Below are positions 2,355 to 25,651 of a stretch of DNA of 27,588 nucleotides, one piece after another. The stretch is from IMG/VR virus record IMGVR_UViG_3300024518_000175, positions 1 through 27,588 of that record. One strand, given 5' to 3'. The position numbers and the translations under genes are program-made. Source of the stretch: a virus. Each line of letters begins with the position of its first letter. Position 1 is the stretch's first letter. The notes below the pieces were generated by a model. It saw nothing but the letters and a program-made list of their open reading frames with translations. It searched no databases and was not told the DNA's origin.

Positions 2355-2533
2355 AGAAATTTAGATACATTAAAGTAAAAGATCCTCATTGTGAAAATGT
2401 TAACGACATTCGTGATAGTTATTCTGGACTATGGAAATATTTAAAATTAAATAAGATACAAAGAAGAGATAACAGAGGATACATGTTATGGACAGAGAAG
2501 CATGTATATAAACTAGAGCCGAGAGGGTCATGA
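2351..2533 (+). CDS. Small basic hypothetical protein, 60 aa
   Basis: This 60-aa, Lys/Arg/Tyr-rich product (KKFRYIKVKDPHCENV at the start, KIQRRDNRGYMLWTEKHVY later) has no recognised family. Both ends are ATGA overlaps: with the 55-aa gene upstream and with the cytosine methyltransferase at 2530 downstream. The gene is therefore in an operon with the methyltransferase and may be translated in step with it. Whether it helps the methyltransferase, for example as a DNA-binding accessory peptide, cannot be told from sequence. Confidence 0.55.
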   Translation: MKKFRYIKVKDPHCENVNDIRDSYSGLWKYLKLNKIQRRDNRGYMLWTEKHVYKLEPRGS

Positions 2534-3336
2534 ATATTATTAGTTTATTTGATGGGATATCTTGTGGACAACTTGCATTAAATAAAGCAGGTATAAAATA
2601 TAATAAATATATAGCTAGTGAAATAGATAACGATGCATTGACAATAACAAAAAGAAACTTTCCTAATACAATACAAATAGGAGATGTAAATAATTGGATG
2701 GATCATAAAGATTTATTTAATAATAAAATAGATTTACTATTAGGAGGTAGCCCATGTCAAGGGTTCTCAAGATGTGGAAGTCAACTAAATTTGAGTGATA
2801 AAAGAAGTGAATTATTTTTTAGATTCTTAGAAGTCTTAATAAAAAAGAAACCAAAATATTTTTTATTAGAAAATGTAGTTATGAAAAAAGAATGGGAAGA
2901 TATTATAAGTAAGTATATGAAAACTAAACCTATTAAAATTAATTCTTCTTCTGTATCTGCACAAAATCGAGAAAGATTATATTGGACTAATATTCCTATA
3001 GATAAATCTTTATTTACAAATGTCTCTGTAATGTTAAAAGATATTATTGGAGATTATAAAGGTATCGAAGTTTATCCAAGAGGTAATAATAAAGGTGGAT
3101 TAAAATGGTATAAAGGAAAATGTCCTACAATAACTAGCTCTAGTTGGCAAACTAATTTCTTTATAATAGATAGGAATAATAATAAAAGAAAATTTACAGT
3201 TAATGAATGCGAACAAATTCAAACTCTTCCTTTAGATTATACAAAAGGAATAAGTAATACACGAAGATATAAAGTAATAGGAAATGCTTGGACTGTAGAT
3301 GTTATTTATAATATACTAAAAGGAATAAACTCATGA
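2530..3336 (+). CDS. C5-cytosine DNA methyltransferase
   Basis: It transfers a methyl group from SAM to carbon 5 of cytosine in DNA. Motifs are in standard order: motif I (ISLFDGISCGQLAL), an acidic residue after strand 2 (SEIDNDAL), catalytic motif IV GGSPCQGFSR with the Cys nucleophile at about residue 77, motif VI LLENV, motif VIII SAQNRERLYWTNI, and motif X VIGNAWTVDVI. At 268 aa it is compact, with a short target-recognition stretch around PTITSSSW. No restriction enzyme is adjacent, so it looks like an orphan phage methylase, which usually protects phage DNA from host restriction. It is visibly more A/T-rich than its surroundings: 14 G/C of 60 in 2581-2640, against 30 of 60 in 13261-13320. 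That suggests recent acquisition. The target sequence cannot be read from the protein. Confidence 0.93.
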   Translation: MNIISLFDGISCGQLALNKAGIKYNKYIASEIDNDALTITKRNFPNTIQIGDVNNWMDHKDLFNNKIDLLLGGSPCQGFSRCGSQLNLSDKRSELFFRFLEVLIKKKPKYFLLENVVMKKEWEDIISKYMKTKPIKINSSSVSAQNRERLYWTNIPIDKSLFTNVSVMLKDIIGDYKGIEVYPRGNNKGGLKWYKGKCPTITSSSWQTNFFIIDRNNNKRKFTVNECEQIQTLPLDYTKGISNTRRYKVIGNAWTVDVIYNILKGINS

Positions 3337-10539: not shown

Positions 10540-11406
10540 ATGAAATCAATAGATACATTAGTTAAAGATATCTATAGTTTATTCAATGAGGTTGAAAATT
10601 CTGTAGAGGAAGATGAAATAGATACCGATATTATAAATGAGTTTGGAGATAATATAAAAACTCATTTGTTAACAGCCTTAACTGAAAAGAGAAGGGAAGG
10701 TAAAAATAATCTTAGACTATCTGCTATTGGTAGACCTGATCGGCAGGTATGGTATGATATAAATCTAAATGATAAGGCCACACCCTTTACTCCTTCCACT
10801 AGAATAAAATTTTTATATGGATATATTCTGGAAGAATTACTCATAGCTTTATCTAAACTATCTGGTCATACAGTTACAGATACACAAAAAGAATTGGATA
10901 TTCATGGGGTTAAGGGACATCAGGATTGTGTGATTGATGGGGTGTTAGTTGATTGTAAGTCTACTTCTCCCAGAGGATATGAAAAGTTTGATAAAGGAGA
11001 TCTAGTTAATGATGATCCCTTTGGTTACATAGCACAGATCTCTGCCTATTCAGAAGCTAATGGAATGGATGAAGCTGCTTTCCTAGCTATCAATAAACAA
11101 AGTGGAGAGATATGTTTAGCTCCTGTTCATTCATTGGAAATGATTAATGCAGGAGATAGAGTACAATACTTGAAGTCAATGGTAGGTAATAAAGCTCCAC
11201 CTAATAGATGTTACAGTGATGTTAAAGAGGGAGCTTCAGGTAATCGTAGACTAGGGACTTCTTGTTTGTATTGTAATCATAAGAAAGAATGTTGGAAGGA
11301 TGCTAATGATGGAAAAGGTTTACGAGTATACAACTATGCAAGAGGATACAGGTATCTTACTAAGGTTGTACGTGAACCGGATGTTGAAGAGATCCACGCA
11401 TGGTAG
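10540..11406 (+). CDS. RecB/Cas4-like PD-(D/E)XK exonuclease with a Cys cluster
   Basis: It probably degrades DNA from ends, as gp6 does in T7: host DNA breakdown, recombination or primer removal. In the 288-aa product the core is GHQDCVIDGVLVDCKSTS, with D129, then D138 and K140 as the D-x-K pair, and the RecB-type Q-x-x-x-Y motif is QISAY (166-170). Four Cys follow at 224, 242, 245 and 251 (NRCYSD, SCLYCNHKKECW). Their spacing C-x17-C-x2-C-x5-C resembles the C-terminal cluster of Cas4/AddB nucleases, where they hold a 4Fe-4S cluster; zinc is the alternative. The gene has no evident ribosome-binding site of its own beyond CTCCCC-TATTTCTTT, as the terminator occupies the leader. It overlaps the GIY-YIG gene by seven bases. 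Confidence 0.82.
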   Translation: MKSIDTLVKDIYSLFNEVENSVEEDEIDTDIINEFGDNIKTHLLTALTEKRREGKNNLRLSAIGRPDRQVWYDINLNDKATPFTPSTRIKFLYGYILEELLIALSKLSGHTVTDTQKELDIHGVKGHQDCVIDGVLVDCKSTSPRGYEKFDKGDLVNDDPFGYIAQISAYSEANGMDEAAFLAINKQSGEICLAPVHSLEMINAGDRVQYLKSMVGNKAPPNRCYSDVKEGASGNRRLGTSCLYCNHKKECWKDANDGKGLRVYNYARGYRYLTKVVREPDVEEIHAW

Positions 11407-12050
11407 ATCACCATTGGCTTGTCTACAAAAAGGACGAGGAGTTTGTTCCCAATCTTGATAAGTTTGGATTTGTTTATCTCATAACTAATCTTCAAAGTGG
11501 TAAAGGTTATATAGGTTGTAAGCAATACAAATTATATACTAAGTTAAAGGAGAGAGAATCAGATTGGAAAACCTACACTGGTTCATCTAAGTGGCTCAAT
11601 GAAGATATACAGAATATAGGTAAGGAACATTTTAAATTTGAAATCATAGCTGAGTATAAGAATAAACGTAGCTTACGTTACTATGAGTTATACTATCAGA
11701 TGAAATTTAATGTTCTCTCTTCTACCATTGAGGGTACAGATGAACCAGCCTACTATAACTCACGAGTAGGCGGTAAGTTCTATCGTCCTGTAGAGAGCTA
11801 TGAAGATCCTGATTATAGAAAGAAGTTAAGTGAAAGAGAGTTTTATAAAGATCCTGAATATAGAAAGAAGTTAAGTGAAAGAGAGTATTATAAAGATCCT
11901 GAATTTAAAAAGAAACAATCTGAGATTCAAAAGAAATACCTTGAAGATCCTAAAAATAGAAAGAAAAATAAAATACAACTAGATAGAAATCGTAATACAA
12001 AAAAAGATCCTGTTACTGGTAGATTTATGAAACGTAATGTACAAGCCTAA
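11400..12050 (+). CDS. GIY-YIG endonuclease, free-standing homing type
   Basis: This likely cuts DNA at a specific site and is spread by copying itself. Near the N-terminus of the 216-aa protein, FVYLITNLQSGKGYIGCKQ (about residues 24-42) provides the VYxI and YIG parts of the GIY-YIG fold, and further on YYELYYQMKF holds the catalytic Glu region. The C-terminal half is a basic repeat region (11805-11949): units of DPEYRKKLSEREYYK with tight 15-residue periodicity. Repeats of this DPEY(R/K)KK type are found in the DNA-binding tails of phage GIY-YIG and HNH endonucleases. It starts 7 bases before the exonuclease stop, so it sits in an intergenic position without harming neighbours. It is not inside an intron as far as I can see. 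Confidence 0.8.
   Translation: MVDHHWLVYKKDEEFVPNLDKFGFVYLITNLQSGKGYIGCKQYKLYTKLKERESDWKTYTGSSKWLNEDIQNIGKEHFKFEIIAEYKNKRSLRYYELYYQMKFNVLSSTIEGTDEPAYYNSRVGGKFYRPVESYEDPDYRKKLSEREFYKDPEYRKKLSEREYYKDPEFKKKQSEIQKKYLEDPKNRKKNKIQLDRNRNTKKDPVTGRFMKRNVQA
11805..11949 (+). repeat. 45-base tandem repeat in the GIY-YIG gene tail
   Basis: GATCCT-led units start at 11805, 11850 and 11895, exactly 45 bases apart. A diverged copy starts at 11946 (51 bases on) and a trace at 12005. The first two copies are nearly identical in DNA, and the protein units are DPxYRKKLSERExYK. The copies are in frame, so the array can gain or lose DNA-binding units without breaking the gene. Confidence 0.8.
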
Positions 12051-12605: not shown

Positions 12606-14544
12606 GTACCAAAACTTTATCTATCTTTCCAGATATTCTAGATGGCTTGAAGAAGAAGGTCGTAGAGAAACATGGGATGAAACTGTTAATAGATTAATTA
12701 GTTTCTTTAGAATACATGTGGAGAATAACCTTGGAGTTAAGGACCAGCTTGATACCAAGGATTGGACTATGATACGTAATGCTATTCTTAGTCTTGAAGT
12801 AATGCCTAGCATGAGATCGTTGATGACTGCTGGTCCTGCTCTTGAGAGAGAGAATATATCTGGATACAACTGTTCCTATATACCAGTGGACAATCCAAAG
12901 TCCTTTGATGAGATACTTTATATTCTTATGAATGGTACAGGTGTAGGCTTCTCCGTTGAGAGACAGTATGTCAACCAGCTTCCCACTATTCCAGACGTAG
13001 AGTTTGAGAGGACCGATGATGTTATTAGTGTGGCTGACTCCAAGGAAGGATGGGCCAGAGCATTTAAAGATTTAGTATCCTTTCTTTATACTAACAGAGT
13101 ACCTAAGATAGATGTCAGCAAGGTACGTCCTGCTGGCTCCCGATTAAAAACCTTTGGTGGTAGAGCCAGTGGTCCTCAACCGTTGGTAGATCTGTTTGAC
13201 TTTACCATACGTAAGTTTGAAGAAGCCAGAGGTAGGAAATTAAATTCCATAGAGTGCCATGACATAGTTTGCAAGGTAGGTGAAGTTGTAGTGGTGGGTG
13301 GTGTACGTAGGTCTGCTCTCATATCTTTGTCTAATCTATCGGATGATCGTATGAGGGCAGCCAAGTCCGGTGCTTGGTTTAATACTGATCCACAACGAGC
13401 CTTGGCTAATAACTCTGCCGTGTATACCAACCGTCCTGACACTGGTATATTTATGAATGAGTGGCAGTCCCTCTATGAAAGTAAGAGTGGTGAACGTGGT
13501 ATCTTTAATCGTGAGTCAGCACAACAAAAGGCAGCACAGAATAAACGTAGGGTGTGGGATGTAGACTTTGGAACTAATCCTTGTTCAGAGATTATACTAC
13601 GTCCTAATCAGTTCTGTAATCTAACAGAGGTAGTATGCAGGGCTGAAGATGATCGTATCTCTTTGGCAAGAAAGGTACGTGTAGCTACTCTGCTAGGTAC
13701 TATTCAATCTACACTCACTAACTTTGGCTATCTTAGAAAGAGATGGGTAACCAATACAGAAGAGGAAAGACTGTTGGGTGTATCTCTGACAGGCATAATG
13801 GACTGTAATCTATTACACTCTTCACCAAAGAAGTTATCTTACTCTGCTAAAGTACCTTATCTGGAAGATACACTTAGTTATCTACGTAACGTAGCTGTAA
13901 CAACGAATAAGAAGTGGGCAGAGAAACTAGGTATACCTCAGTCCACGGCTATTACTTGTGTGAAACCATCAGGTACTGTTAGTCAGTTAGTGGATAGTGC
14001 CAGTGGTATACACACCAGACATTCACCCTACTACGTTCGTACTGTAAGGGCAGATAACCTTGACCCGTTGACAAAGTTTATGAAGGAGCATGGCATTCCT
14101 AATGAGCCAGATGTTACAAGTCCAGATAATGTTACTGTCTTTTCCTTTCCTATTCACACAAGTTCTAAGTCTAAATTCAGGAATGATCTTAGTGCTATAC
14201 AACAATTGGAAGTATGGAAGATATATGCAGAGTATTGGTGTGAACATAAGCCAAGTGTAACTATATCTGTGAAGGAAAGAGAATGGGTACAGGTAGGTGC
14301 TTGGTGTTGGGATAACTTTGATCACCTATCCGGTGTCTCGTTCCTGCCATATTCTGACCACAATTATAAACAGGCTCCCTACCAAGAGATAAACAAAGAG
14401 GAGTATACTAAGGTAATGAAGACTATGCCAAAGAAACGTATTGATTGGTCACTACTCTCAGAGTTTGAGAAGGAAGATAATACTACAGGAGCACAAGAAT
14501 TAGCATGTACTGCTGGTGTATGTGAGTTGGTGGACCTGATATGA
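12589..14544 (+). CDS. nrdJ: Class II (adenosylcobalamin-dependent) ribonucleoside-triphosphate reductase
   Basis: It makes dNTPs from NTPs with a cobalamin-generated thiyl radical (EC 1.17.4.2). The 651-aa product resembles the monomeric Lactobacillus type. NPCSE (330-334) carries the radical Cys 332 with Asn 330 and Glu 334, Cys 95 and Cys 343 form the active-site pair, and the 11-residue distance from C332 to C343 equals that of C408 to C419 in the Lactobacillus enzyme. The C-terminal tail CTAGVC (640-645) holds the shuttle pair. The substrate loop is near VKPSGTVSQLVDSASGIHTR. All catalytic residues look intact. Ribosome binding is by GGAGAAGATATAG. The enzyme needs host B12, so the host should make or import it. 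It works with ThyX at 4802. Confidence 0.95.
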   Translation: MQLPTEYQNFIYLSRYSRWLEEEGRRETWDETVNRLISFFRIHVENNLGVKDQLDTKDWTMIRNAILSLEVMPSMRSLMTAGPALERENISGYNCSYIPVDNPKSFDEILYILMNGTGVGFSVERQYVNQLPTIPDVEFERTDDVISVADSKEGWARAFKDLVSFLYTNRVPKIDVSKVRPAGSRLKTFGGRASGPQPLVDLFDFTIRKFEEARGRKLNSIECHDIVCKVGEVVVVGGVRRSALISLSNLSDDRMRAAKSGAWFNTDPQRALANNSAVYTNRPDTGIFMNEWQSLYESKSGERGIFNRESAQQKAAQNKRRVWDVDFGTNPCSEIILRPNQFCNLTEVVCRAEDDRISLARKVRVATLLGTIQSTLTNFGYLRKRWVTNTEEERLLGVSLTGIMDCNLLHSSPKKLSYSAKVPYLEDTLSYLRNVAVTTNKKWAEKLGIPQSTAITCVKPSGTVSQLVDSASGIHTRHSPYYVRTVRADNLDPLTKFMKEHGIPNEPDVTSPDNVTVFSFPIHTSSKSKFRNDLSAIQQLEVWKIYAEYWCEHKPSVTISVKEREWVQVGAWCWDNFDHLSGVSFLPYSDHNYKQAPYQEINKEEYTKVMKTMPKKRIDWSLLSEFEKEDNTTGAQELACTAGVCELVDLI

Positions 14545-14894
14545 AGGAAGGAAAAATATGGGGTAACACAATAGACCTATTGAAAAGTCCTGCTATTGAG
14601 ATACATCAGATATATATAAAACCTAAATCATATTGCTCATTGCATAAACATCAGACAAAGTTCAATGCTTTCTATGTTATCTCTGGCAAGCTAATGATAG
14701 AACGATGGAAGAATGACTATGAGCTGGTGGATCAAACTATACTACATGCTGGAGACTTTACCGTAGTACCACCCGGAGAGTACCATATGTTCACAAGTCT
14801 GGATGAGTGTGTCAGTGGGCTTGAGATATATTGGAGTGAGTTGAATCATAATGATATAGTAAGAAAGAACTCTGGAGGTGTAAAAAATACTTGA
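14541..14894 (+). CDS. Single-domain cupin (mannose-6-phosphate isomerase type II-like)
   Basis: A small beta-barrel with YCSLHKHQTKFNAFYVISGK (about residues 32-51) as the first cupin motif and GDFTVVPPGEYHMFTSL (72-88) as the second. The His pair, Lys in place of Glu, and PPGxxH resemble the mannose-6-phosphate isomerase/GDP-mannose pyrophosphorylase C-terminal cupin and small phage cupins. The protein is only 117 aa, a lone cupin without a partner domain. It begins on ATGA with the reductase stop, and its own stop is part of promoter P3. As it leads into a sugar-modification block, a role in sugar-nucleotide metabolism is plausible but not shown by sequence. Confidence 0.78.
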   Translation: MKEGKIWGNTIDLLKSPAIEIHQIYIKPKSYCSLHKHQTKFNAFYVISGKLMIERWKNDYELVDQTILHAGDFTVVPPGEYHMFTSLDECVSGLEIYWSELNHNDIVRKNSGGVKNT

Positions 14895-14965: not shown

Positions 14966-15373
14966 ATGTTAAATTATGAAATGTGGCCTAGATATTTTAT
15001 TGGGTTCGACAGAATGTTGGATAATATTCCAGCATCTAATAATAACACAGGCAGTGGGTATCCACCTTATGATATCGTTAAATCAGGTGAAGACAAGTAC
15101 TGTATAGAGATGGCTCTTGCAGGTTTCACCAAGGATGAGATTAGTGTTGAAGTTAAAGAAGAGTATTTAACAATAGAAGGAGATGCTAGTGATAGACATG
15201 ATAACTCTGACTATGTTCACAAGGGAATTGGTAGGAGAGCATTTCAAAAGAAGTTCTGCCTTAACGACACGGTTGAAGTCGAAGGGGCTGATCTTACCGA
15301 TGGGGTACTCCATATTCGATTGAAACATAATATCCCTGAAGAGCAAAGACCAAGACAAATAACAGTTAATTAA
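14966..15373 (+). CDS. Small heat-shock protein (Hsp20/IbpA family)
   Basis: An ATP-independent chaperone that keeps unfolding proteins soluble. The 135-aa product has an IbpA-like N-terminus (FDRMLDNI) and an alpha-crystallin domain from about residue 35: YDIVKSGEDKYCIEMALAGF, then DEISVEVKEEYLTIEGDAS, and the late ADLTDGVLHIRLKHNIPEE block in place of the usual A-x-L-x-NGVL-x-I-x-L-P. The start follows AAAGGAG; ATG 14961 is out of frame. Promoter P3 gives it a leader of its own and it is the first gene of its unit, so high expression during infection is likely. sHsps occur in marine phages, perhaps helping capsid or enzyme folding in a stressed host; this is inference. Confidence 0.92.
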   Translation: MLNYEMWPRYFIGFDRMLDNIPASNNNTGSGYPPYDIVKSGEDKYCIEMALAGFTKDEISVEVKEEYLTIEGDASDRHDNSDYVHKGIGRRAFQKKFCLNDTVEVEGADLTDGVLHIRLKHNIPEEQRPRQITVN

Positions 15374-15383
15374 AGGAGACTCT

Positions 15384-16163
15384 ATGAATACAGTCTATAT
15401 TGGCTACGATCCCAAAGAGGATATGGCCTACCAAGTTTTAAAGTTTTCGTTGGAACGTATAACAACGAAACCAATAAGAGTAGTACCTATCCGATTGGAT
15501 GTAGTGCAACGTATGGGACTGTATCGTAGGGAGTTTTCTGTAATGGACGGTCAAAGATATGATACTATTGATGGCCGTCCATTCTCTTCTGATTTTTCCT
15601 TTACCAGATTTCTTGTTCCCTTCCTGAATATGTTTGAAGGTAAGGCTCTATACATGGACTGTGACATGTATATGAGGACAGATGTATCAGACCTGTTTGA
15701 TCTATGTTCTCTAGATTACTATCCCCTCTGGTGTGTACATCACGAGTATGAACCAGAAGCTAGTAGCAAGATGGATAACAAGGTGCAAGAACCATATCGT
15801 AGGAAGAACTGGTCTAGTCTTATAATGTTTAATTGTGCTCATCAGGCACACAAGAATCTTAGTATAGATGATATCAATACACAATCAGGCAGATGGTTAC
15901 ATGGGTTTGAGTGGTTGCCTGATAAAGAGGCAGACATAGGAGCCATACCTGAAGAATGGAACTGGCTTGATGGACATTCACCTGAGAAACTGGAAGCAAA
16001 GAACGTACACTTTACCACTGGTGGTCCTTGGTTTGAGAACTGGCAATGCAGAGGAAAGGTAGATGCAAAGTATGCAGTTGAGTGGACTAACGATGCACGA
16101 TGGTTACAAGCCAATGGCATGGTGGATGGTGAAGTAGATTACTTAATAAGGGCTAAAGATTAA
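15384..16163 (+). CDS. GT8-like glycosyltransferase, 259 aa
   Basis: It probably transfers a sugar from a nucleotide-sugar to an acceptor. The start (RBS AAAGGAGACTCT) leads into VYIGYDPKEDMAYQVLKFSL, like the GT-A fold beginning of family 8. ALYMDCDMYMRTDVSDLF at about 88-105 holds the D-x-D (D92, D94) that binds metal and donor, and HFTTGGPWFENW near residue 211 gives the late His/Gly motif of GT8. The protein lies within an unbroken row with the next GT/methyltransferase/DUF115 fusion (ATG at the stop). Acceptor and sugar are unknown; phage surface parts, host envelope or modified DNA bases are all conceivable. Confidence 0.8.
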   Translation: MNTVYIGYDPKEDMAYQVLKFSLERITTKPIRVVPIRLDVVQRMGLYRREFSVMDGQRYDTIDGRPFSSDFSFTRFLVPFLNMFEGKALYMDCDMYMRTDVSDLFDLCSLDYYPLWCVHHEYEPEASSKMDNKVQEPYRRKNWSSLIMFNCAHQAHKNLSIDDINTQSGRWLHGFEWLPDKEADIGAIPEEWNWLDGHSPEKLEAKNVHFTTGGPWFENWQCRGKVDAKYAVEWTNDARWLQANGMVDGEVDYLIRAKD

Positions 16164-18508
16164 TGACAATAATAAATGTAGTTACAGCATTCAATGAGAA
16201 CTCTCTCAAAGATCATGCACACCAGATGTTTCAACGAGTTGCCAAGTACTGGCATCCAGATATTAAACTAACAGCTTACTATTTTGATTGTGATATAACA
16301 GCCTATGATCTTCCCGATTGTATTGAATATAAAAACCTTGAGGAAGTGGAAGGCTTTAATGAATTTCGTGAGAACATGGATGTACATAATGGTACTGAGA
16401 ATGGTACAATAGATTATAACTGGAGAATAGATACACTTCTCACGGCTCCAAAGGTCTTTGCACTTACAGAAGAGTCCTTCTCCATAGCAGAGAAGACCAA
16501 GGCAGGTGGATGGTTACTGTGGATGAATACTAATATCATACCAGTGGCTGATCTTACACCTAAGTATATGCATAAGTTCTTTCCAGAAGGTTCTGATATA
16601 GTACACCTGAGTGGAGATACTACAGAGGATACTCCTGATCAGTATAGTAATCCTTCCTTCATGGCATTTAATCTGGACCATCAGTCTCCCTTGGATATAC
16701 TTGGTGATCTACGAGGTGCCTATGAGAGCAGTGAGATCCTATCTTATAGAGAATGGCATGCTGCCTTTATTCTTGAAAGGTTACTCAACATCTATAGAGC
16801 ACATGGCATGAGGGTACATACTCTTACTCCAGCCAATACAAATAAGGGTATCTTTGCTACTCCCTTCAGAGACTATCTCACAAACTTGGAAGAGAGTAAC
16901 AGAGCCTTACGTGACAGTGATGGCAACAGGGTATTCCCATTGCCTGAAGATGCTGTTCCACCAGACATCAGACCTAACCGTACCAAGATGCTGGCTGATA
17001 TTATTCGACACTATAAGTCTTCATCTTTTGTAGAGACAGGTACATGGAATGGTGGACGAGCTATAGAGATGGCTCTAGCTGCCTTTGAAAGTAACGATGA
17101 AGTTACCTATACTGGATATGATTTGTTTGAGGATGCCACAGAAGAGACAGACATTGAAGAGTTCAATCACAAAGCTCATGTTAATATGAAGGCAGTTGAA
17201 AAAAGATTAACAGAGTTTAAAGATACCATGAAGAAGGATAAGAATAAAACCTTCAACTTTACCTTGGTTAAAGGGAACACACGGGATACTCTGGTCAAAG
17301 CAGACCCTGACATAGCCTTAATAGGTGGTGGTAATAGTATCACAACTATCCAGAATGACTATGGCAAGCTGGAGAATGCCCGTATCAAGATGGTAGACAA
17401 CTACTTCAGTGAGGATTCAGAGAAGAAGAAGCCTTTGAAGAAGTATCATGGAGTAAACATACTTGCCCAGACATTGGAGAATGTGAAGAGAGTTATCCTT
17501 CCTTCTTCTGATCCTGTTAAGAACGGTGGTATTACTCACTACTGTATGATCTATAGTGAGGCTACTACTCCACCTCTCCCTGATAGTCTTCTTAATGTTC
17601 CTATCGTTGTACATCCACGAGACTGTGTGGATAAGGAATATATACAGAGTAACATCATGGAGAACATGAAGTTAATAGATAAGGATAAGTTCCTTGGTAA
17701 GTGTATACCTAATGAAGGAGAAGTTATAGTTATATCCGGTGGACATTCCACTGACTTCACTAAAGTTAAGGAGCTTATGAAGGAAAGACCAGAAGCTAAA
17801 GTATTATGTGTGAAACATTCCTATCCTAAGTTACTGGAGAATGGTATTAAACCGTGGGCTTGTATCGTACTTGATCCACGATCTATCGAAGGAGAGAGTA
17901 CACATGGTGTAGTACGTAAGGATCTATTCAAGACTATTGATCCTACTACCAAGTTCTTTGTGGCATCCATGACTGATCCTTCTGTTACCAAGTATCTATT
18001 GGAGAAGAAAGCTAACATCTATGGATGGCACGCATTTACCGAATCACTACGTAATGAAGACGAGAGAGAAAAGGAGATAGAGAACCAGAAGGTCCATGTA
18101 ATGCCCAACCTTGGCATACCAGAGGGAGCTACTCTTATTACAGGTGGTACGTGTGCAGCCATGAGATGTCTTGGTATCATGCATACGATGGGCTTTAGAA
18201 AATTCGATCTCTTTGGATTTGATTCTTCCATGCAGGAGCAACCTACAGATGATCAGATGAAAGAGACTACAGGTGCAGAGGATGAAGAGCCAAAGCCAAA
18301 GTATCTACAGGTGAATGTACGAGGTGAAAACTACTGGACTACTGGTGAGCTACTAGCTATGGCACAGGATTGTGAACGTACCTTTAACGATTCATCCATG
18401 AACCTTACATTAAATGTACATGGAAAGAACTCACTCGTGTCTGCTCTATGGAAGCTACATCTAGATGAACGAAAAGTACCAGAGTTTAAGGATGTCTTTG
18501 ATGACTAA
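16163..18508 (+). CDS. Three-domain protein: GT-like, class I methyltransferase, DUF115 (MptE/Maf-like)
   Basis: The 781-aa product reads as three modules. Residues 1-240 look like a glycosyltransferase-like domain (INVVTAFNENSLKDHAHQMF at the start, YYFDCDI at 39-45, GGWLLWMNTNIIPVADL at 115-131). Residues about 274-415 resemble a class I methyltransferase (SSFVETGTWNGGRAIEMA for SAM binding; the later loop FTLVKGNTRDTL). Residues about 485-760 match DUF115 (EGEVIVISGGHSTDFTKV, then KPWACIVLDPRS, VASMTDPSV, ITGGTCAAMRCLG and LFGFDSS). DUF115 includes 6-hydroxymethylpterin kinase MptE and the Maf flagellin-glycosylation proteins. The fusion may modify and then attach a sugar. I do not know the exact architecture from other phages. 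It overlaps the next methyltransferase by eight bases. Confidence 0.75.
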   Translation: MTIINVVTAFNENSLKDHAHQMFQRVAKYWHPDIKLTAYYFDCDITAYDLPDCIEYKNLEEVEGFNEFRENMDVHNGTENGTIDYNWRIDTLLTAPKVFALTEESFSIAEKTKAGGWLLWMNTNIIPVADLTPKYMHKFFPEGSDIVHLSGDTTEDTPDQYSNPSFMAFNLDHQSPLDILGDLRGAYESSEILSYREWHAAFILERLLNIYRAHGMRVHTLTPANTNKGIFATPFRDYLTNLEESNRALRDSDGNRVFPLPEDAVPPDIRPNRTKMLADIIRHYKSSSFVETGTWNGGRAIEMALAAFESNDEVTYTGYDLFEDATEETDIEEFNHKAHVNMKAVEKRLTEFKDTMKKDKNKTFNFTLVKGNTRDTLVKADPDIALIGGGNSITTIQNDYGKLENARIKMVDNYFSEDSEKKKPLKKYHGVNILAQTLENVKRVILPSSDPVKNGGITHYCMIYSEATTPPLPDSLLNVPIVVHPRDCVDKEYIQSNIMENMKLIDKDKFLGKCIPNEGEVIVISGGHSTDFTKVKELMKERPEAKVLCVKHSYPKLLENGIKPWACIVLDPRSIEGESTHGVVRKDLFKTIDPTTKFFVASMTDPSVTKYLLEKKANIYGWHAFTESLRNEDEREKEIENQKVHVMPNLGIPEGATLITGGTCAAMRCLGIMHTMGFRKFDLFGFDSSMQEQPTDDQMKETTGAEDEEPKPKYLQVNVRGENYWTTGELLAMAQDCERTFNDSSMNLTLNVHGKNSLVSALWKLHLDERKVPEFKDVFDD

Positions 18509-19121
18509 TCCATCTGCTGAGTACAAAGAGTTACTGGAAGAATATAAAGATCTTCATAAACATCCCACTATGTTTCCCGGTAGGAGTGTACTAAAGTATG
18601 TACACTATATCAGATCTATACTGAAGGACAATAGATGTAAAACTTTACTGGACTATGGTAGTGGTAAAGGATATTTATATGAAGCAGATCATGCCTATAC
18701 CAAGAAGAACTTAACTAAAGCATTAGATAAGTTCTGGAATCTGAATGAGGTAACCTGCTATGATCCGGGTGTGGAGAAGTTCTCCAAGTTACCAGACGGG
18801 ATGTTTGATGGAGTAATATCTGTCGATGTAATGGAACATATCCCTACTGAAGATGCTGAGTGGGTACTGGATAAGATTATGAGCTACTCCAATAAGGTAG
18901 TATTCCTGAATATAGCTTGTTATCAAGCAGTTAAAACATTTAAGAACGGTAAGAACGTACATGTATCTGTACACTCACCTGATTGGTGGATGGACTTATT
19001 GAATAAAGTATGGTATATTAAGCATAATAAACGTATAACTGTTCATGTAACCTTTGAGGAAGTGGGGGAAAAATTTGTCTCGTCTGGAATATTTAAAACA
19101 CATACTCTGTACAAGCATTAA
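18501..19121 (+). CDS. SAM-dependent methyltransferase, 206 aa
   Basis: A class I methyltransferase: CKTLLDYGSGKGYLYEAD gives the glycine-rich SAM loop, CYDPGVEKFS the acidic end of strand 2, and FDGVISVDVMEHIPTED the motif for strand 4 with the MEH-I-P loop. This is the pattern of Methyltransf_11/25-type small-molecule or sugar methylases rather than DNA methylases; DPPY/NPPY and PCQ are absent. ATG 18501, with AAGGATG upstream, is preferred to 18465, which would overlap the fusion protein by 44 bases. It ends the glycosylation block, so it could methylate a sugar precursor or a glycan made by its neighbours. Confidence 0.8.
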   Translation: MTNPSAEYKELLEEYKDLHKHPTMFPGRSVLKYVHYIRSILKDNRCKTLLDYGSGKGYLYEADHAYTKKNLTKALDKFWNLNEVTCYDPGVEKFSKLPDGMFDGVISVDVMEHIPTEDAEWVLDKIMSYSNKVVFLNIACYQAVKTFKNGKNVHVSVHSPDWWMDLLNKVWYIKHNKRITVHVTFEEVGEKFVSSGIFKTHTLYKH

Positions 19122-19218: not shown

Positions 19219-19623
19219 ATGGCTATAGGAATTATTGAATCAGTAGTAGGTGTGGTAGATAATGTACTGGATAAGTTTGTCGAGGACAAAGATCTACGTG
19301 CCAAGTTAAACCATGAACTAAAGACACAGGTGCAACGAGCTAATCTTGCACAGATAGATGTTAATAAGGAACAGGCCAAGCATCCTTCTATCTTTGTAGC
19401 AGGAGCTAGGCCAGCCATCATGTGGATCTGTGCCTTTGGATTGGGTTGGCAATTCGTATTCCAGCCCATATGCCTATGGGCATTAGCTATATGGGCTACT
19501 GATGTTGTCATGCCTGTCATACCAACAGAAGGACTAATGACATTAACCTTATCTCTCCTTGGTCTTGGTGGTATGAGAAGTTTTGAGAAGACAAAAGGTA
19601 TACAAAGAGACAACCTTAAATAA
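19219..19623 (+). CDS. Holin of the 3TM gene-transfer-agent type
   Basis: It should open the inner membrane for release of endolysin. The 134-aa product has a charged N-terminal region of about 60 residues (IESVVGVVDNVLDKFVED, NVNKEQAKHPSIF-like VNKEQAKHPSIF) and then an RP-x-x-MW motif (GARPAIMWICAFGLGWQFVF) followed by further hydrophobic segments (CLWALAIWATDVVMPVI, LMTLTLSLLGLGGMRSFEK). This matches the 'Holin of 3TMs, for gene-transfer release' (GTA_holin_3TM) family, typical of alphaproteobacterial phages and GTAs. It starts behind AGGAGAATCAT. Its stop overlaps the small terminase start by one base (TAATG). The minus-strand frame 19215-19613 is a shadow. Confidence 0.85.
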   Translation: MAIGIIESVVGVVDNVLDKFVEDKDLRAKLNHELKTQVQRANLAQIDVNKEQAKHPSIFVAGARPAIMWICAFGLGWQFVFQPICLWALAIWATDVVMPVIPTEGLMTLTLSLLGLGGMRSFEKTKGIQRDNLK

Positions 19624-20030
19624 TGCTAACAGATAAACAAGAGAGGTTTGCTCAAGCCTACGTGTTACATCGAAATGCAACAGAAGCTGCAAAGACTGCT
19701 GGCTATGCTGCACGATCTGCCTATAATCAAGGTTATAGGATGTTAAAGAACGATGAAATTGTGGAAAGAATATCCGATTTAGAAAATGAATTGGAAACCA
19801 ATATAGATGTTATTGATGAAATAGAAAATCAATATACATTTGCTAAGAATAGTGGGCATACAAATAGTGCCATTAAAGCACTTGAACTTCTTTCCAGAAT
19901 ACGAGGAGCCAAGGGTGGTAAAGATTCTGATATATCCAAAGAAGGATTAGAAACATCTATCATCGAAGCTCTACAAGTACTAGGTAAAGATAAAGTTAAT
20001 CAACTTATTAATAAATGTAATTTTAAATAA
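19623..20030 (+). CDS. Terminase small subunit (Terminase_2-like)
   Basis: It recognises packaging sites and feeds DNA to the large terminase. The 135-aa product begins LTDKQERFAQAYVLHRNATE AAKTAGY in the N-terminal DNA-binding pattern (L-x-x-K-Q-x-x-F-x-x-x-Y, then N-A-T-x-A-A-x-x-A-G-Y, then a helix ending MLKNDEIVERI) typical of the family, and continues as a helical region (ALELLSRIRGAKG). No large terminase follows; the next plus-strand gene is a lipoprotein and then the strand switches. TerL must therefore lie outside the window. It is coupled to the holin by TAATG. Confidence 0.8.
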   Translation: MLTDKQERFAQAYVLHRNATEAAKTAGYAARSAYNQGYRMLKNDEIVERISDLENELETNIDVIDEIENQYTFAKNSGHTNSAIKALELLSRIRGAKGGKDSDISKEGLETSIIEALQVLGKDKVNQLINKCNFK

Positions 20031-20945: not shown

Positions 20946-21515
20946 TTATATGGGTCGTGGATTATATGGGTATGGATTACGTTGTATCATACCACCTGTA
21001 TGTCTTTTTAAATGTCCTAAAACATTTGTTATATATTCATCAGTATACTCTTTATCTCTTCCATACCAATCTCCAACTACTTCTGCTAATTGTAGATCGT
21101 CTAATGTATCAGCATCATATCCTTTATAAGAGGCTTTTAATCTAAATAGTCTATCACCTAAATTCCAATAGGTATCCTTTTCTTCGGGAGTTAAGAGATC
21201 TCCTGATCCACCATAATCATATCGTGAATCATACCATTCTTGGTCTTGTTCGTTACCATGTTTAGCAAACAGTTTAGATTGGCTTTTTAATTTCTTTATT
21301 AAACTTTTTTCTTTACTAGATAACTCTGACTGTCCTTTAGCTTTTAAATGTTTATCTTTTAAATCATCTAAAGTAGATCCAGTAATTTGTAGAGGACCAT
21401 AAGCAGTAGAACCACCGGGAGCATTTCGTACCCTAGTTCTAATCCAAGGATCTTCTTCTCCACCTGTTTCTTGAGGAGCTATTCCTCTTAAAAGTATATC
21501 TCTAACAACAGACAT
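20946..21515 (-). CDS. Putative lytic transglycosylase-like protein, 189 aa
   Basis: The N-terminal region has Glu 16 in IAPQETGGEEDPW and then GSTAYGPLQITGSTLDDL, similar to the SLT-type E ... S-x-x-[AG]-x-G-x-x-Q-I pattern of transglycosylases and phage lysozymes. The remaining part is helical and charged, with a Tyr/Asp-rich patch (QEWYDSRYDYGGSGDLL) and the end WYGRDKEYTDEY. It could be a virion-associated lysin that lets DNA cross the wall, or a second endolysin. The position after the two large virion-type genes and before the M15 peptidase fits either. The assignment rests on short motifs. Confidence 0.55.
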   Translation of the reverse strand: MSVVRDILLRGIAPQETGGEEDPWIRTRVRNAPGGSTAYGPLQITGSTLDDLKDKHLKAKGQSELSSKEKSLIKKLKSQSKLFAKHGNEQDQEWYDSRYDYGGSGDLLTPEEKDTYWNLGDRLFRLKASYKGYDADTLDDLQLAEVVGDWYGRDKEYTDEYITNVLGHLKRHTGGMIQRNPYPYNPRPI

Positions 21516-21757
21516 TACTTATCCATCCTCATATAGTCATCTATCTTATCTTCAAGTCTATCGAACCTTGCCATAATCTGGTGCAGGTCGTCTTTAACTT
21601 CTTGTTTGGTTGCATAGGTCAGAGCTATGTGCTCCCTATTAGTCAACCCTTCCTCACGTATCTTTGTAATGGATGCTGAAGTGGTACGTATCCACCACAG
21701 AAATCCACCAATAGCCATCGTGAGAATGGCATTCCAGATCATAGTCATGTCTTGCAT
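21515..21757 (-). CDS. Small TM/coiled-coil protein, 80 aa
   Basis: One N-terminal membrane segment (WNAILTMAIGGFLWWI, about residues 8-23) precedes a charged helix with heptad pattern (KQEVKDDLHQIMARFDRLED). The layout of one membrane helix and a long amphipathic tail is that of an inner-membrane spanin, an antiholin-like protein, or a structural membrane peptide of phages. It starts behind GGAGTTACCTATGC-type purine sequence at the large gene's end and its stop overlaps the transglycosylase-like start by one base. No named family is certain. Confidence 0.6.
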   Translation of the reverse strand: MQDMTMIWNAILTMAIGGFLWWIRTTSASITKIREEGLTNREHIALTYATKQEVKDDLHQIMARFDRLEDKIDDYMRMDK

Positions 21758-21766
21758 AGGTAACTC

Positions 21767-24700
21767 CTATTTATTAGTTATTTTTGTTCCCGACATTGCT
21801 TTTTGATACCTACGTATTTTTTCCCAAGGAATAGGTACGTTAGTATGCCTTCTTGAAATATCCTGTGCGGTACCACTAGGACTGAAAGGATGAAATGTAT
21901 TTCGTCTAGTTTGATCCATATATTTAATTAAATTAGAGGATGGTGTTAATGCATAATCTTTTGTAATTCCTTTACGAATCATATTATCTCTACTACCAGA
22001 AGTTTGGTGAGCATTTTTTAGTAGATCATCATAAATTTCAGTTAAACTGTTTAGTTCCTGATAATTTTCCAATTGGTTCATAACAGCTTTTCTATAGAAA
22101 TCAAATATTTTTTCTTGAGGCATTCCTCTTGGATCAGAAATACTATTAGTAAATTCAGCCGAAGCATTATCTATATTATTAATAACAGGTAATAGATGTC
22201 TTCTCATGCCAGCCGATATATCTAGTCGTTGAGGTCGTATGCCTATCCATCTTAGTAAAGCACCACTATCTCCTTTTCCTTCATCTCCAATATCAAAAAA
22301 TTCTCTATGAGGCATCGTATAACCAAACTTACTTTGTGCTCCTTCCGTTACTCCTGCTCCCTTTCTTCTATTATAATCCCATTGTTTCCTTGCCAATGTT
22401 ATAGCTCCGGGTTCCAGAAGTTTATACATTTCTCCTGCCATTCTTAAACCAAAGCCGGGTATATCTTTAGATGCCTCTTCTAATCCCTCTCTTGTACCTG
22501 CACCTTGCAGGACGTTCATCAGAGCTTCAGAAGCCATTGAAGCTCCCAGAAATGGTTCTAATACATTTGCATAACCTGCCATAAGCATGGCATTTATATC
22601 AGGTCGTTCTAAATTCTTTCCCGATTTTAGATGAGATACTAACATTCTAGCAGGAGCTTTCAAATAAGAGAAAGGATCTATTGGTCCTAGATTTACAAAG
22701 TCTATTCCAAAATGTCCATTCTCATCTTCATTAAGCCCACTTAAAAATATCTTGGCTGTATCTTGTGACCAAGGTGGAGATAGTCTATTTACATTATAAA
22801 CATCTTCTTGACTTAAACCAGCTACGTTCATTGAATAATTCTGAGCTACATCTCCAGCCATAGAAGCAGCTACTAAACCTCCCATTCTTCTATAGCCCTG
22901 ATCTCTAATAGCTTCAGCAGCTTTTGGATTTATATCAAATCCTTTTGCCTTTAACTTTTTAGCAGTATTACCTGTAACATCATCGTAGGTATACTTTAGA
23001 AGATTTTTACTAACTCGCATCATCTCCGAAGGCCACGCAGCAAAATCACTAAGAGGCCAACGTCTTAGCATCTTAACTGCTTTAGGAACTAGAGCATAGT
23101 TGGGCATTAAATCTCGTGTCCTAGCTGCTGCCATTTCTTCCAAAGCATCATCACCTATTCCTAAATTCCACTTCCTCATATCATCCATAGTCTTTTGAAA
23201 ATGGAGCATTTTAAATAGATCGTCTTCTGCCTGATATACTTCAAATGTTTTTTCAACGAATTTACCGGCTTTAGTTTTACCTAGTTTACCCATAAGAGTA
23301 CCGGGATCAAAGGTAAAAGCATCACTTGCCATTCTCTTAACTGTTTGAGCTTTAACACTACTATCTATAATACCAAGTTCCTGTAGTCTTCCTACATACT
23401 TTCCAAGTTGTTCATCACTATAACCTTTAATACGGTTACCTACTATAGCAAAAGGATTCTTTTCTCCACCTAAAGCATAGGGTTTATAACCATTGGCTAC
23501 CATTAGGACAACATTACCCATGACATTACGACCATGAGTAGCAGGAGATAGAACAGTCTTGGCTGTTTGAGAAGCAACCTTTAGCATTAGAAACTTTTGC
23601 CATGTAGCATTCATTGGACTTAGATATTCTATACCTTCATTTAAAAATCTAGCATAGCTTTCATTAACAAAGAGATCTTCTAATGGATTTACAACTCGTG
23701 GGTCGATTTTCCCTGTATCTGGGTTTACTTTAGTTGGGTGAACATTTGATTTTCCAAGAATTTTTTTAAGTCTTTCCTGAGATATATCTTGCAAATTAAC
23801 AAGTACTTCTTCATTGGTCGTACCTTTAGGTCTACCACTAGCAGTAGTAAGCCTATAACCCTGTCGAGATGGTTCACCTATCACAGCTAAATTATGATTA
23901 AGTAAATGCTTTCGTATATCATGCATAAAGTCAGCTTCAGCTTTAGCCACAGATAACTTCTCATATGTTCTGGCAAAGTTTTTATGAGGATCTTTAATTT
24001 CCTGCATAAGATCTTTAATTTCCCAAGGAACTTTACCCCTTGCCAAAAATGCTTTATTACTATCTGAAAATGTTTTGGCAAGTAATTTAATACCATTTTT
24101 AAAATCCTTCTTACTCCCCTTTGCTAGTATCTCTTTTAATACCCATTCAGCATCTTCAGGATTAAGACCTTGCCTATATAGATAGTTCATAGCATTAGAT
24201 TTTACTTCAGTACTAAGTTTATCCCACCCTTCAAAAGAAGGATCATCAAATAAACGATAAGCTCTATTCATATAGAATCCTAAATTAGAATCTATAGTTA
24301 CTTTTAAATCTCCCGTTACAAGAGGATGACCATTTTTACCAGTGACAGCTTCAGAAAACTCATCAAGTTTTCCTCTCATAGAACCTAATAAATCTGCTGT
24401 CTTACTATAACCTGTAGCTCTAAGAGTATCCATAGCTGCTCTTTGTGCTCGTAAATTATGAGCAGGATTAGAATATGATTCTCCACCTAAAGCTCTATTC
24501 ATTCTTTTTAATAATTCTTCTTTACCAACAACTCTTTTATTCTTACGTGCTACGGCACTCTCTTCCTTAACAATCCTCTTAAAATCTTGTGCTAGACCAT
24601 CAGCTTCAGAGATAGCTTTATTAGGAGCAAAGAACCTACGTAACCCCATAGCTAGTACAACATCATCAACTCCATACTTGGATGTTAGCCATTCTCTAGA

Positions 24701-25651
24701 CATCTTAGCTACTTTATCTAGTTTAGTTTTCTCCACTATCGTTTTACTTAATCCTATTCTACGAGCTGCTGAAGCTAACATAGGACCACCTACTATTGCA
24801 GCTCCACCTCCTAAAGCAAAAGGAAGTTCTAGTACAGTGTTATTGAGAAAAGCATTTAACTCCTGTACTAACTTTGGATCATTAGGATCTATAGCTAATC
24901 CTTGAAACATTTCCATTGTTTCAGGATGCTCTTCAATTAGATCTGTTAGCCAATCTTCTTCAGGTCCATTAACAACAGTCATAGCTCCACCAAACCCTAT
25001 ACCTTCTCGTATTAATCCCTTACTTCTTCTTTTCAGTCTTTGTCTTTTAGCCCATGTACCTTTTCCTTTACCAAATAGGTGTGGCTTCAAGACTTGCTCC
25101 TGTACTGAACCAAAGAGAGAAGGAGTAAGTCGTTTAGATTTAACAATCTTTTCAGGTTTATCTAATATTCCTAAACGAGAAAGCTGCTTATTAGACAGTA
25201 AATTTTTAGCTCCTTTATATATTTTCAAACCACCTGTGTAGGGAATTAGAATACTAGCTAATTCTCCAACAAAAGGTTCTATAAGACCATCTCCATGATA
25301 AGGGTCAAATACTTCTGACATAGTTCTTTTAACACCTTCTGAAAGATTTTTATCAAAGAATTTTTCAGCAGCTTCTTCTACTGACTTGGGAGCTAATATC
25401 CTTGCTACACCTTCAACAGTTTCACCAATGGCTCGGCCAGTTAGACGACCTAACATAAATCCCGGTCTATCTAACTCATAGCCAGTATCTTTAAATTCTT
25501 TCCATGCTCCTTGGAACTCTTCAAGATCTACACCTTTATCTTGTAAAAAACTTTCTACTTGATTGGGAGATATACCACCTTGTTCAGCAGCTATCTGATC
25601 TAATCCTTTACGGAGTTTATGAAACTCTGCCGTTTTAGGTGTTAAAGCCAT
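21767..25651 (-). CDS. Large virion-type protein, 1294 aa (internal/ejection protein candidate)
   Basis: No named domain is recognised with certainty. The size, position in the minus-strand structural row, and composition suit a big internal virion or ejection protein like T7 gp15/gp16. It has long helical stretches rich in Lys, Glu, Ala and Leu, with a few short hydrophobic segments: FALGGGAAIVGGPMLASAA at about 272-290 and NVMGNVVLMVANGY near 710, which may insert in membranes. The N-terminus has a helical TPKTAEFHKLRKGLDQIAAE block. No clear transglycosylase motif is visible within it. It follows the 641-aa protein by three bases, so both are expressed together, and precedes the TM/coiled-coil gene. 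Confidence 0.6.
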   Translation of the reverse strand: MALTPKTAEFHKLRKGLDQIAAEQGGISPNQVESFLQDKGVDLEEFQGAWKEFKDTGYELDRPGFMLGRLTGRAIGETVEGVARILAPKSVEEAAEKFFDKNLSEGVKRTMSEVFDPYHGDGLIEPFVGELASILIPYTGGLKIYKGAKNLLSNKQLSRLGILDKPEKIVKSKRLTPSLFGSVQEQVLKPHLFGKGKGTWAKRQRLKRRSKGLIREGIGFGGAMTVVNGPEEDWLTDLIEEHPETMEMFQGLAIDPNDPKLVQELNAFLNNTVLELPFALGGGAAIVGGPMLASAARRIGLSKTIVEKTKLDKVAKMSREWLTSKYGVDDVVLAMGLRRFFAPNKAISEADGLAQDFKRIVKEESAVARKNKRVVGKEELLKRMNRALGGESYSNPAHNLRAQRAAMDTLRATGYSKTADLLGSMRGKLDEFSEAVTGKNGHPLVTGDLKVTIDSNLGFYMNRAYRLFDDPSFEGWDKLSTEVKSNAMNYLYRQGLNPEDAEWVLKEILAKGSKKDFKNGIKLLAKTFSDSNKAFLARGKVPWEIKDLMQEIKDPHKNFARTYEKLSVAKAEADFMHDIRKHLLNHNLAVIGEPSRQGYRLTTASGRPKGTTNEEVLVNLQDISQERLKKILGKSNVHPTKVNPDTGKIDPRVVNPLEDLFVNESYARFLNEGIEYLSPMNATWQKFLMLKVASQTAKTVLSPATHGRNVMGNVVLMVANGYKPYALGGEKNPFAIVGNRIKGYSDEQLGKYVGRLQELGIIDSSVKAQTVKRMASDAFTFDPGTLMGKLGKTKAGKFVEKTFEVYQAEDDLFKMLHFQKTMDDMRKWNLGIGDDALEEMAAARTRDLMPNYALVPKAVKMLRRWPLSDFAAWPSEMMRVSKNLLKYTYDDVTGNTAKKLKAKGFDINPKAAEAIRDQGYRRMGGLVAASMAGDVAQNYSMNVAGLSQEDVYNVNRLSPPWSQDTAKIFLSGLNEDENGHFGIDFVNLGPIDPFSYLKAPARMLVSHLKSGKNLERPDINAMLMAGYANVLEPFLGASMASEALMNVLQGAGTREGLEEASKDIPGFGLRMAGEMYKLLEPGAITLARKQWDYNRRKGAGVTEGAQSKFGYTMPHREFFDIGDEGKGDSGALLRWIGIRPQRLDISAGMRRHLLPVINNIDNASAEFTNSISDPRGMPQEKIFDFYRKAVMNQLENYQELNSLTEIYDDLLKNAHQTSGSRDNMIRKGITKDYALTPSSNLIKYMDQTRRNTFHPFSPSGTAQDISRRHTNVPIPWEKIRRYQKAMSGTKITNK

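Follow-up and report, generated by a model that had tools for sequence, protein, structure and literature searches.

Closest Described Systems

Accessory glycan genes of phages usually come and go. The Pfam name PF01973 (DUF115/MptE-like) is common to MptE, a pterin (hydroxymethyl-dihydropterin) diphosphokinase, and to the Maf proteins. Maf flagellin glycosyltransferases act on protein, and in their structure a Rossmann-like domain precedes the DUF115 domain (PMC11339370). Here we analyzed a 27.6-kb viral contig, IMG/VR record IMGVR_UViG_3300024518_000175 (positions 1 to 27,588, hereafter the window), in which a gene row contains a GT8-like glycosyltransferase (GT), a fusion protein of 781 amino acids (aa) and a methyltransferase. 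The fusion is predicted to combine a GT6-like domain, an O-methyltransferase domain and a DUF115/Maf-like domain.

Comparable modules are found in glycan clusters of described phages. In Pelagibacter phage Mosig, the gene directly before GT8 encodes a stand-alone homologue of the fusion's N-terminal domain; of 80 relatives of that Mosig gene, 70 lie within about 3.5 kb of a GT8. Caulobacter phage CcrSC carries a DUF115-like gene three genes before GT8, plus a small methyltransferase, and in Stenotrophomonas phage DLP_6 a GT29-like gene adjoins GT8. The clusters of Bertelyvirus (Caulobacter), DLP_6 and Mosig thus resemble the window in having homologous GT8 and methyltransferase genes with DUF115-, GT29- or GT6-like partners nearby, but these partners are separate genes and no fusion is present. 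As the modules are separate genes in other phages' glycan clusters, the fusion joins those modules. A counterpart in the viral structure library, the uncultured Caudovirales protein A0A6J7X5Q0, aligned with the fusion from end to end (25% identity over 796 columns, E 2e-59), although it is 714 aa long and carries only an automatic annotation ("methyltransferase domain"). Other MptE-like phage proteins are also present in that library, and we found no description of phage DUF115/MptE-like proteins or of such an architecture in the open-access papers searched. The architecture arranges known glycan-modification parts in a new way, and its conservation is unusually high for a phage.

Three Folds in One Protein

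The predicted structure of the fusion, built from 56 diverged relatives (38-90% identity), had a mean predicted local distance difference test (pLDDT) score of 88.7 and a predicted template modeling (pTM) score of 0.60; an earlier model from 12 close sequences was discarded (pLDDT 47.7). In the fold search, the best match in the PDB was Maf (5MU5, rank 1, E 4e-8), followed by many GT6 enzymes, among them mammalian alpha-1,3-galactosyltransferase and bacterial BoGT6a (E 1.6e-6 to 1e-5), and then by COMT-like O-methyltransferases. The search listing gave no aligned residues, and matches were assigned to domains by their length and type. Secondary structure and alignment placed the domain borders at about residues 1-250, 272-470 and 480-781. 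The model and the fold search support a fusion of three differently folded parts. The earlier note on this DNA, made from the letters alone, had proposed a GT/methyltransferase/DUF115 fusion with split points at residues 245, 270 and 480; these are correct within about 10 residues, and the parts are three different folds rather than one single-family protein. The row of a GT8-like gene, a 781-aa fusion and a second methyltransferase with overlapping ends, also described there, agrees with the open reading frames (ORFs).

Sequence profiles detect mainly the C-terminal part. PF01973 matched residues 497-691 with 47.6 bits against a curated cut-off of 34.6 (E 2e-12), the only Pfam match in the window copy, the first two domains being too diverged for Pfam. 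Among the 56 aligned relatives, PF01973 was matched in all, Methyltransf_24 in 30 and TylF in 15. Sequence searches of the fusion against proteins of solved structure gave no useful match, and alpha-actinin matches to the N-terminal domain (E 0.001) were, given its GT-A fold, taken to be chance.

Two trivial origins of the fusion were ruled out. An assembly artefact is excluded by the identical frame across many independent contigs, and a chance ORF by purifying selection and the conserved frame. A single open frame of 781 codons was present in nearly all close relatives, one of which has an internal stop. In two loci (L005, 4165-6507; L145, 2610-4922; a single contig each; L numbers denote related loci), the fusion reads as split by a stop or frame break, either an error or a genuine interruption. 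The ratio of nonsynonymous to synonymous substitution rates (dN/dS) was about 0.05-0.14 across the whole gene. Between the window and L003 it was 0.07-0.10 in each domain, and the maximum for a single domain, 0.34, came from one closer pair. All three domains of the fusion are under purifying selection.

Conservation of the Cassette

We identified 106 distinct full-length relatives of the fusion, always beside a GT8-like gene and 38-90% identical in the subset compared. Scans with the fusion as query gave about 20 close relatives and a scan with the GT8 at least 599. Among the best 80 of the GT8 relatives, the GT6-like domain that begins the fusion directly follows GT8 in 76, the remaining four stopping short of that point. 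As a sample anchored on GT8 depends on the cassette, we repeated the test from the terminase small subunit. Of 365 terminase relatives the best 80 were kept, a sample that speaks for the nearer part of the group; among these, GT8 and fusion were present in 64 of the 65 contigs with at least 4.5 kb of upstream sequence, some of these contigs being identical to or near copies of those found earlier. Within this nearer part, the cassette is near-core in the marine podovirus group. Gene order at the locus is fixed, with ribonucleotide reductase followed by Hsp20, GT8, the fusion, an optional methyltransferase, holin and terminase. Among terminase relatives, L245 has enough upstream sequence, lacks the cassette and shows opposite-strand genes there; L224, with 4.4 kb upstream, has no cassette nearby and carries small genes and a long ORF with a portal-like start.

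The group belongs with HTVC103P/HMO-2011-like marine podoviruses, with which it shares gene order and homologous replication genes. The replication proteins are 40-47% identical to those of Pelagibacter phages HTVC104P/115P and the polymerase 43% to that of HTVC104P, while the ribonucleotide reductase is 61% identical to that of HMO-2011 and lies in the same gene order. Unlike the window, HTVC104P/115P and HMO-2011 did not show the cassette within the regions read. With three diverse queries, the fusion was not found in 50,697 named phage genomes. Bacterial genomes contained one matching contig only, in a Sneathiella metagenome-assembled genome and the same contig as a viral one; this phage contig (L043, PAKP01000072.1, Sneathiella sp.) is a possible but weak hint at a host. 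Candidate hosts lie among the Alphaproteobacteria, for instance Sneathiella, SAR11 or SAR116.

The virus group is known almost only from metagenomes, and retention of a large multidomain glycan gene by nearly every sampled member implies a central role.

Catalytic Motifs and the Second Methyltransferase

The first gene scored 14.5 bits against the Pfam GT8 cut-off of 24.3 and so falls below it, and GT8 matched two of nine homologues (best 4.9e-9). The DCD motif and the C-terminal HFTTGGPW (HxxGxxW-like) are conserved in the GT8-like gene, and DxD is kept in 168 of 178 GT8 copies. No sequence relation was detectable between the N-terminal domain of the fusion and the GT8 profile, and hence the two are not recent duplicates.

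The GT6-like domain is more variable. At the DxD site most relatives have DAD, the window's close clade has NTN (9/9 in the alignment) and part of the sister lineages have DPx forms. The domain resembles GT6 enzymes such as BoGT6a (4AYL/4AYJ) in the GT-A fold match and in NxN for DxD, but it differs from them in lacking a Pfam GT6 match, in the window as in the 56 relatives, and in that most phage relatives have DAD. Bacterial GT6 enzymes with NXN instead of DXD are active and metal-independent (PMC3961637), and by analogy the window's domain would be metal-independent rather than dead.

The fused methyltransferase varies together with the gene downstream. Where no separate methyltransferase gene follows, the fused domain has IDGGHS and DD; where one follows, it has IG[GS]GNS and DN or DH. 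Motif state and separate gene matched as 66 against 33 distinct classifiable sequences, the exceptions being L148 (truncated at a contig end), L183 (DGGNS, no separate gene) and five unclassified motifs. The motif switch maps to one tree branch with full support, and the match does not therefore amount to 99 independent observations; repeated independent evolution of the methyltransferase swap is rejected, as the tree shows a single event. The pattern is suggestive of a handover from the fused domain to the downstream gene, as an unreplicated single event. Compared with COMT/TylF-type O-methyltransferases (TomG, SafC, Rv0187), the fold, the S-adenosylmethionine (SAM) motif and the D..DD metal residues are shared by the clade lacking the separate gene, whereas the metal-ligand Asp is lost in the window's clade. 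With IGGGNS and DN replacing the Asp and Asp-Asp(Asn) ligands of the sister clade (IDGGHS, DD), the window's fused domain has probably lost metal-dependent activity. The SAM motif VETGTWNGGR is kept.

These substitutions raise the alternative that the fusion of the window's clade is mostly noncatalytic, with the GT6-like and methyltransferase domains reduced to relics or scaffolds and only DUF115, the separate GT8 and the separate methyltransferase at work. This view is in line with the motifs of the whole clade, which has NTN or DPx instead of DxD and IG[GS]GNS instead of IDGGHS, and with L160, a relative outside the clade whose fusion has deleted the methyltransferase domain altogether. The low dN/dS in both domains between the window and L003, the intact SAM motif and the activity of NXN enzymes without metal (PMC3961637) argue the other way, and we consider this alternative unlikely.

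The Maf-Like Domain and the Putative Glycan Acceptor

Maf flagellin glycosyltransferases (5MU5) are similar to the fusion in the DUF115 match above the Pfam cut-off, the top fold match and the Rossmann-like domain before DUF115. A profile alignment with alphaproteobacterial Maf-like proteins (E 6e-8) supported homology over DUF115 only; alignment over the full length was tried and failed, with no similarity to the Maf flanking regions. The fusion differs from Maf in its altered GxGPS motif and extra GT6-like domain, in the lack of nonulosonic-acid genes and flagella, and in that the domain before DUF115 has, in the sister clade, a genuine methyltransferase fold. The context of the cassette is glycan genes, not folate genes. 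The link to nonulosonic acids that the earlier note drew from Maf found no support: besides the altered motif, a search of 10 related contigs, including seven of 53-61 kb, gave no NeuB or CMP-sugar synthetase (CTP_transf_3) family protein, although the host could supply these functions. The glycan-modification cassette proposed in the same place is supported by the folds, the conserved gene set and the sugar-nucleotide genes nearby, and it is conserved as a unit in related phages rather than scattered as unrelated genes.

We tentatively favor, with somewhat less than even confidence, a core cytosolic cassette that builds a glycan, attaches it and caps it with methyl groups, the acceptor most likely being a phage structural protein. 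The Maf-like DUF115 domain would attach the first sugar, most likely to Ser or Thr of that protein. Further hexoses would be added by the GT8-like enzyme and the GT6-like domain, and a methyltransferase would O-methylate the chain as its cap. The fused domain would do the capping in one clade. In the window's clade the separate downstream methyltransferase would have taken it over, the fused domain persisting as a scaffold or a sugar/SAM-binding module. The resulting coat may protect virions or alter virion surface recognition. The GT8, fusion and separate methyltransferase proteins have no membrane segments and no GtrA-type flippase was found in 11 related contigs, which is what a cytosolic route would predict.

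The same cassette could instead act on the host surface during infection, remodeling its glycans (precursors of the lipopolysaccharide core or of O-antigen) and blocking superinfection or the readsorption of virions to debris. This possibility, which we hold to be real though rather doubtful, draws on two kinds of gene that O-antigen loci typically carry and that lie in the cassette or near it, GDP-mannose dehydratase and WbuC-like cupin genes, on a cyanophage GT8 homologue beside KdsA/KdsB genes and on a heptosyltransferase-like GT9 among the Caulobacter phage neighbors. The missing flippase and membrane segments count against it. So does the attaching domain itself: its closest structural relatives are the Maf enzymes, whose targets are proteins (PMC11339370), and on this ground we favor a protein acceptor.

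A DNA acceptor, giving a glycosylated and methylated hypermodified base, appears highly improbable. In its favor, DNA bases are a common target of phage GTs, the window also encodes a cytosine-C5 methylase, and a Rossmann-type methyltransferase and GTs could act on DNA. Against this, 15 related contigs, including seven of 53-61 kb, contained no protein of the ThyA/dCMP-hydroxymethylase family, and the methyltransferases are O-methyltransferase/TylF-like rather than base methyltransferases. No DUF115 enzyme is known to act on DNA.

Several points weigh against a protein-glycosylating cassette. Acceptor, donor and product are all putative, and cytosolic transfer to lipopolysaccharide core precursors would look identical. 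The gene sits by the holin and terminase genes, outside the structural module. Without DxD, for which sister lineages have several DPx forms, the GT6-like domain could be noncatalytic. Finally, the Maf nucleotide-sugar motif G-x-G-P-S is replaced by GGHS (SGGHSTD) in the window and by SAGPY or SGGxS in relatives.

The most far-reaching form of the protein-glycosylation reading is a single polypeptide that acts as a Maf-like phage protein glycosylation machine, attaching, extending and capping a glycan, that is core in widespread marine podoviruses and that carries natural switches between metal-dependent and metal-independent transfer and between fused and separate methylation; we regard this full version as less than probable. 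The cassette supplies testable enzymes: a Maf-like domain from a phage; a single family in which DxD and NxN both occur naturally, suited to the question of metal independence; and a clear example of a neighboring gene that seems to have assumed the role of a catalytic domain. If the acceptor is indeed the virion, the cassette would represent a new route of phage protein glycosylation.

Gene Row and Neighboring Genes

The three ORFs lie on the + strand in an unbroken row with overlapping ends (Table 1). An AAAGGAG ribosome site precedes the GT8-like gene, whose stop overlaps the start of the fusion as TAATG. For the last gene, the start region of homologues agrees better with an in-frame ATG at 18501 than with 18465; the more likely start is thus 18501, giving ATGACTAA and an 8-nt overlap with the fusion.

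Table 1. Features of the cassette and its neighbors in the window
Feature	Coordinates	Strand	Remarks
WbuC-like cupin (sugar-metabolism cupin)	14541..14894	+	Pfam Cupin_2 5e-8, over cut-off; overlaps ribonucleotide reductase gene end
Hsp20 chaperone	14966..15373	+	constant left neighbor, position marker only
GT8-like glycosyltransferase, 259 aa	15384..16163	+	phrog_28018 1.6e-49; DCD intact; HFTTGGPW near C end
Fusion protein, 781 aa: GT6-like GT-A + O-methyltransferase + DUF115/Maf-like (predicted)	16163..18508	+	
GT-A (GT6-like) domain, residues 1-250	16163..16912	+	
NTN at DxD position, residues 122-124	16526..16534	+	
Class I O-methyltransferase domain (Methyltransf_24/TylF, COMT-like fold), residues 272-470	16976..17572	+	
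IGGGNS replacing IDGGHS, residues 387-392	17321..17338	+	first metal-ligand Asp and His lost
DUF115/MptE-like (Maf-like) domain, residues 478-781	17594..18505	+	most conserved part of the protein
Separate class I methyltransferase	18501..19121 (longer ORF from 18465, 218 aa)	+	motif I and DVMEH conserved
Holin and terminase small subunit	19219..20030	+	usual right neighbors, position marker only

Sugar genes were found around the cassette in the window and in relatives. The window's WbuC-like cupin, just upstream of Hsp20, matched NCBIfam cupin_WbuC at 1.4e-7, under that model's cut-off, and is a possible accessory of the cassette; such cupins also occur near the cassette in relatives. GDP-mannose 4,6-dehydratase genes are near it at seven loci of relatives, and L179 (5132-6151) has a full-length gene downstream of the fusion, over the NCBIfam gmd cut-off. 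A 2OG-Fe(II) oxygenase lies upstream of Hsp20 in L183 (5601-6176), with six loci in all. The cyanophage GT8 homologue near genes annotated KdsB and KdsA is from Synechococcus phage S-SCSM2R (L039, 8102-9523).

Elsewhere in the window, a C5-cytosine DNA methylase gene occupies 2530-3336 in the early region and a GIY-YIG/SegE-type homing endonuclease 11400-12050; in relative L010 (11489-12118), a T5orf172/GIY-YIG gene is inserted between holin and terminase. A virion/ejection protein of 1,294 aa is encoded at 21767-25651 on the - strand; the counterparts that relatives carry share only about 22% identity with it or are not detectably related. Neighbors such as 21515-21757 are 86-96% identical, which marks the 1,294-aa gene as sharply hypervariable.

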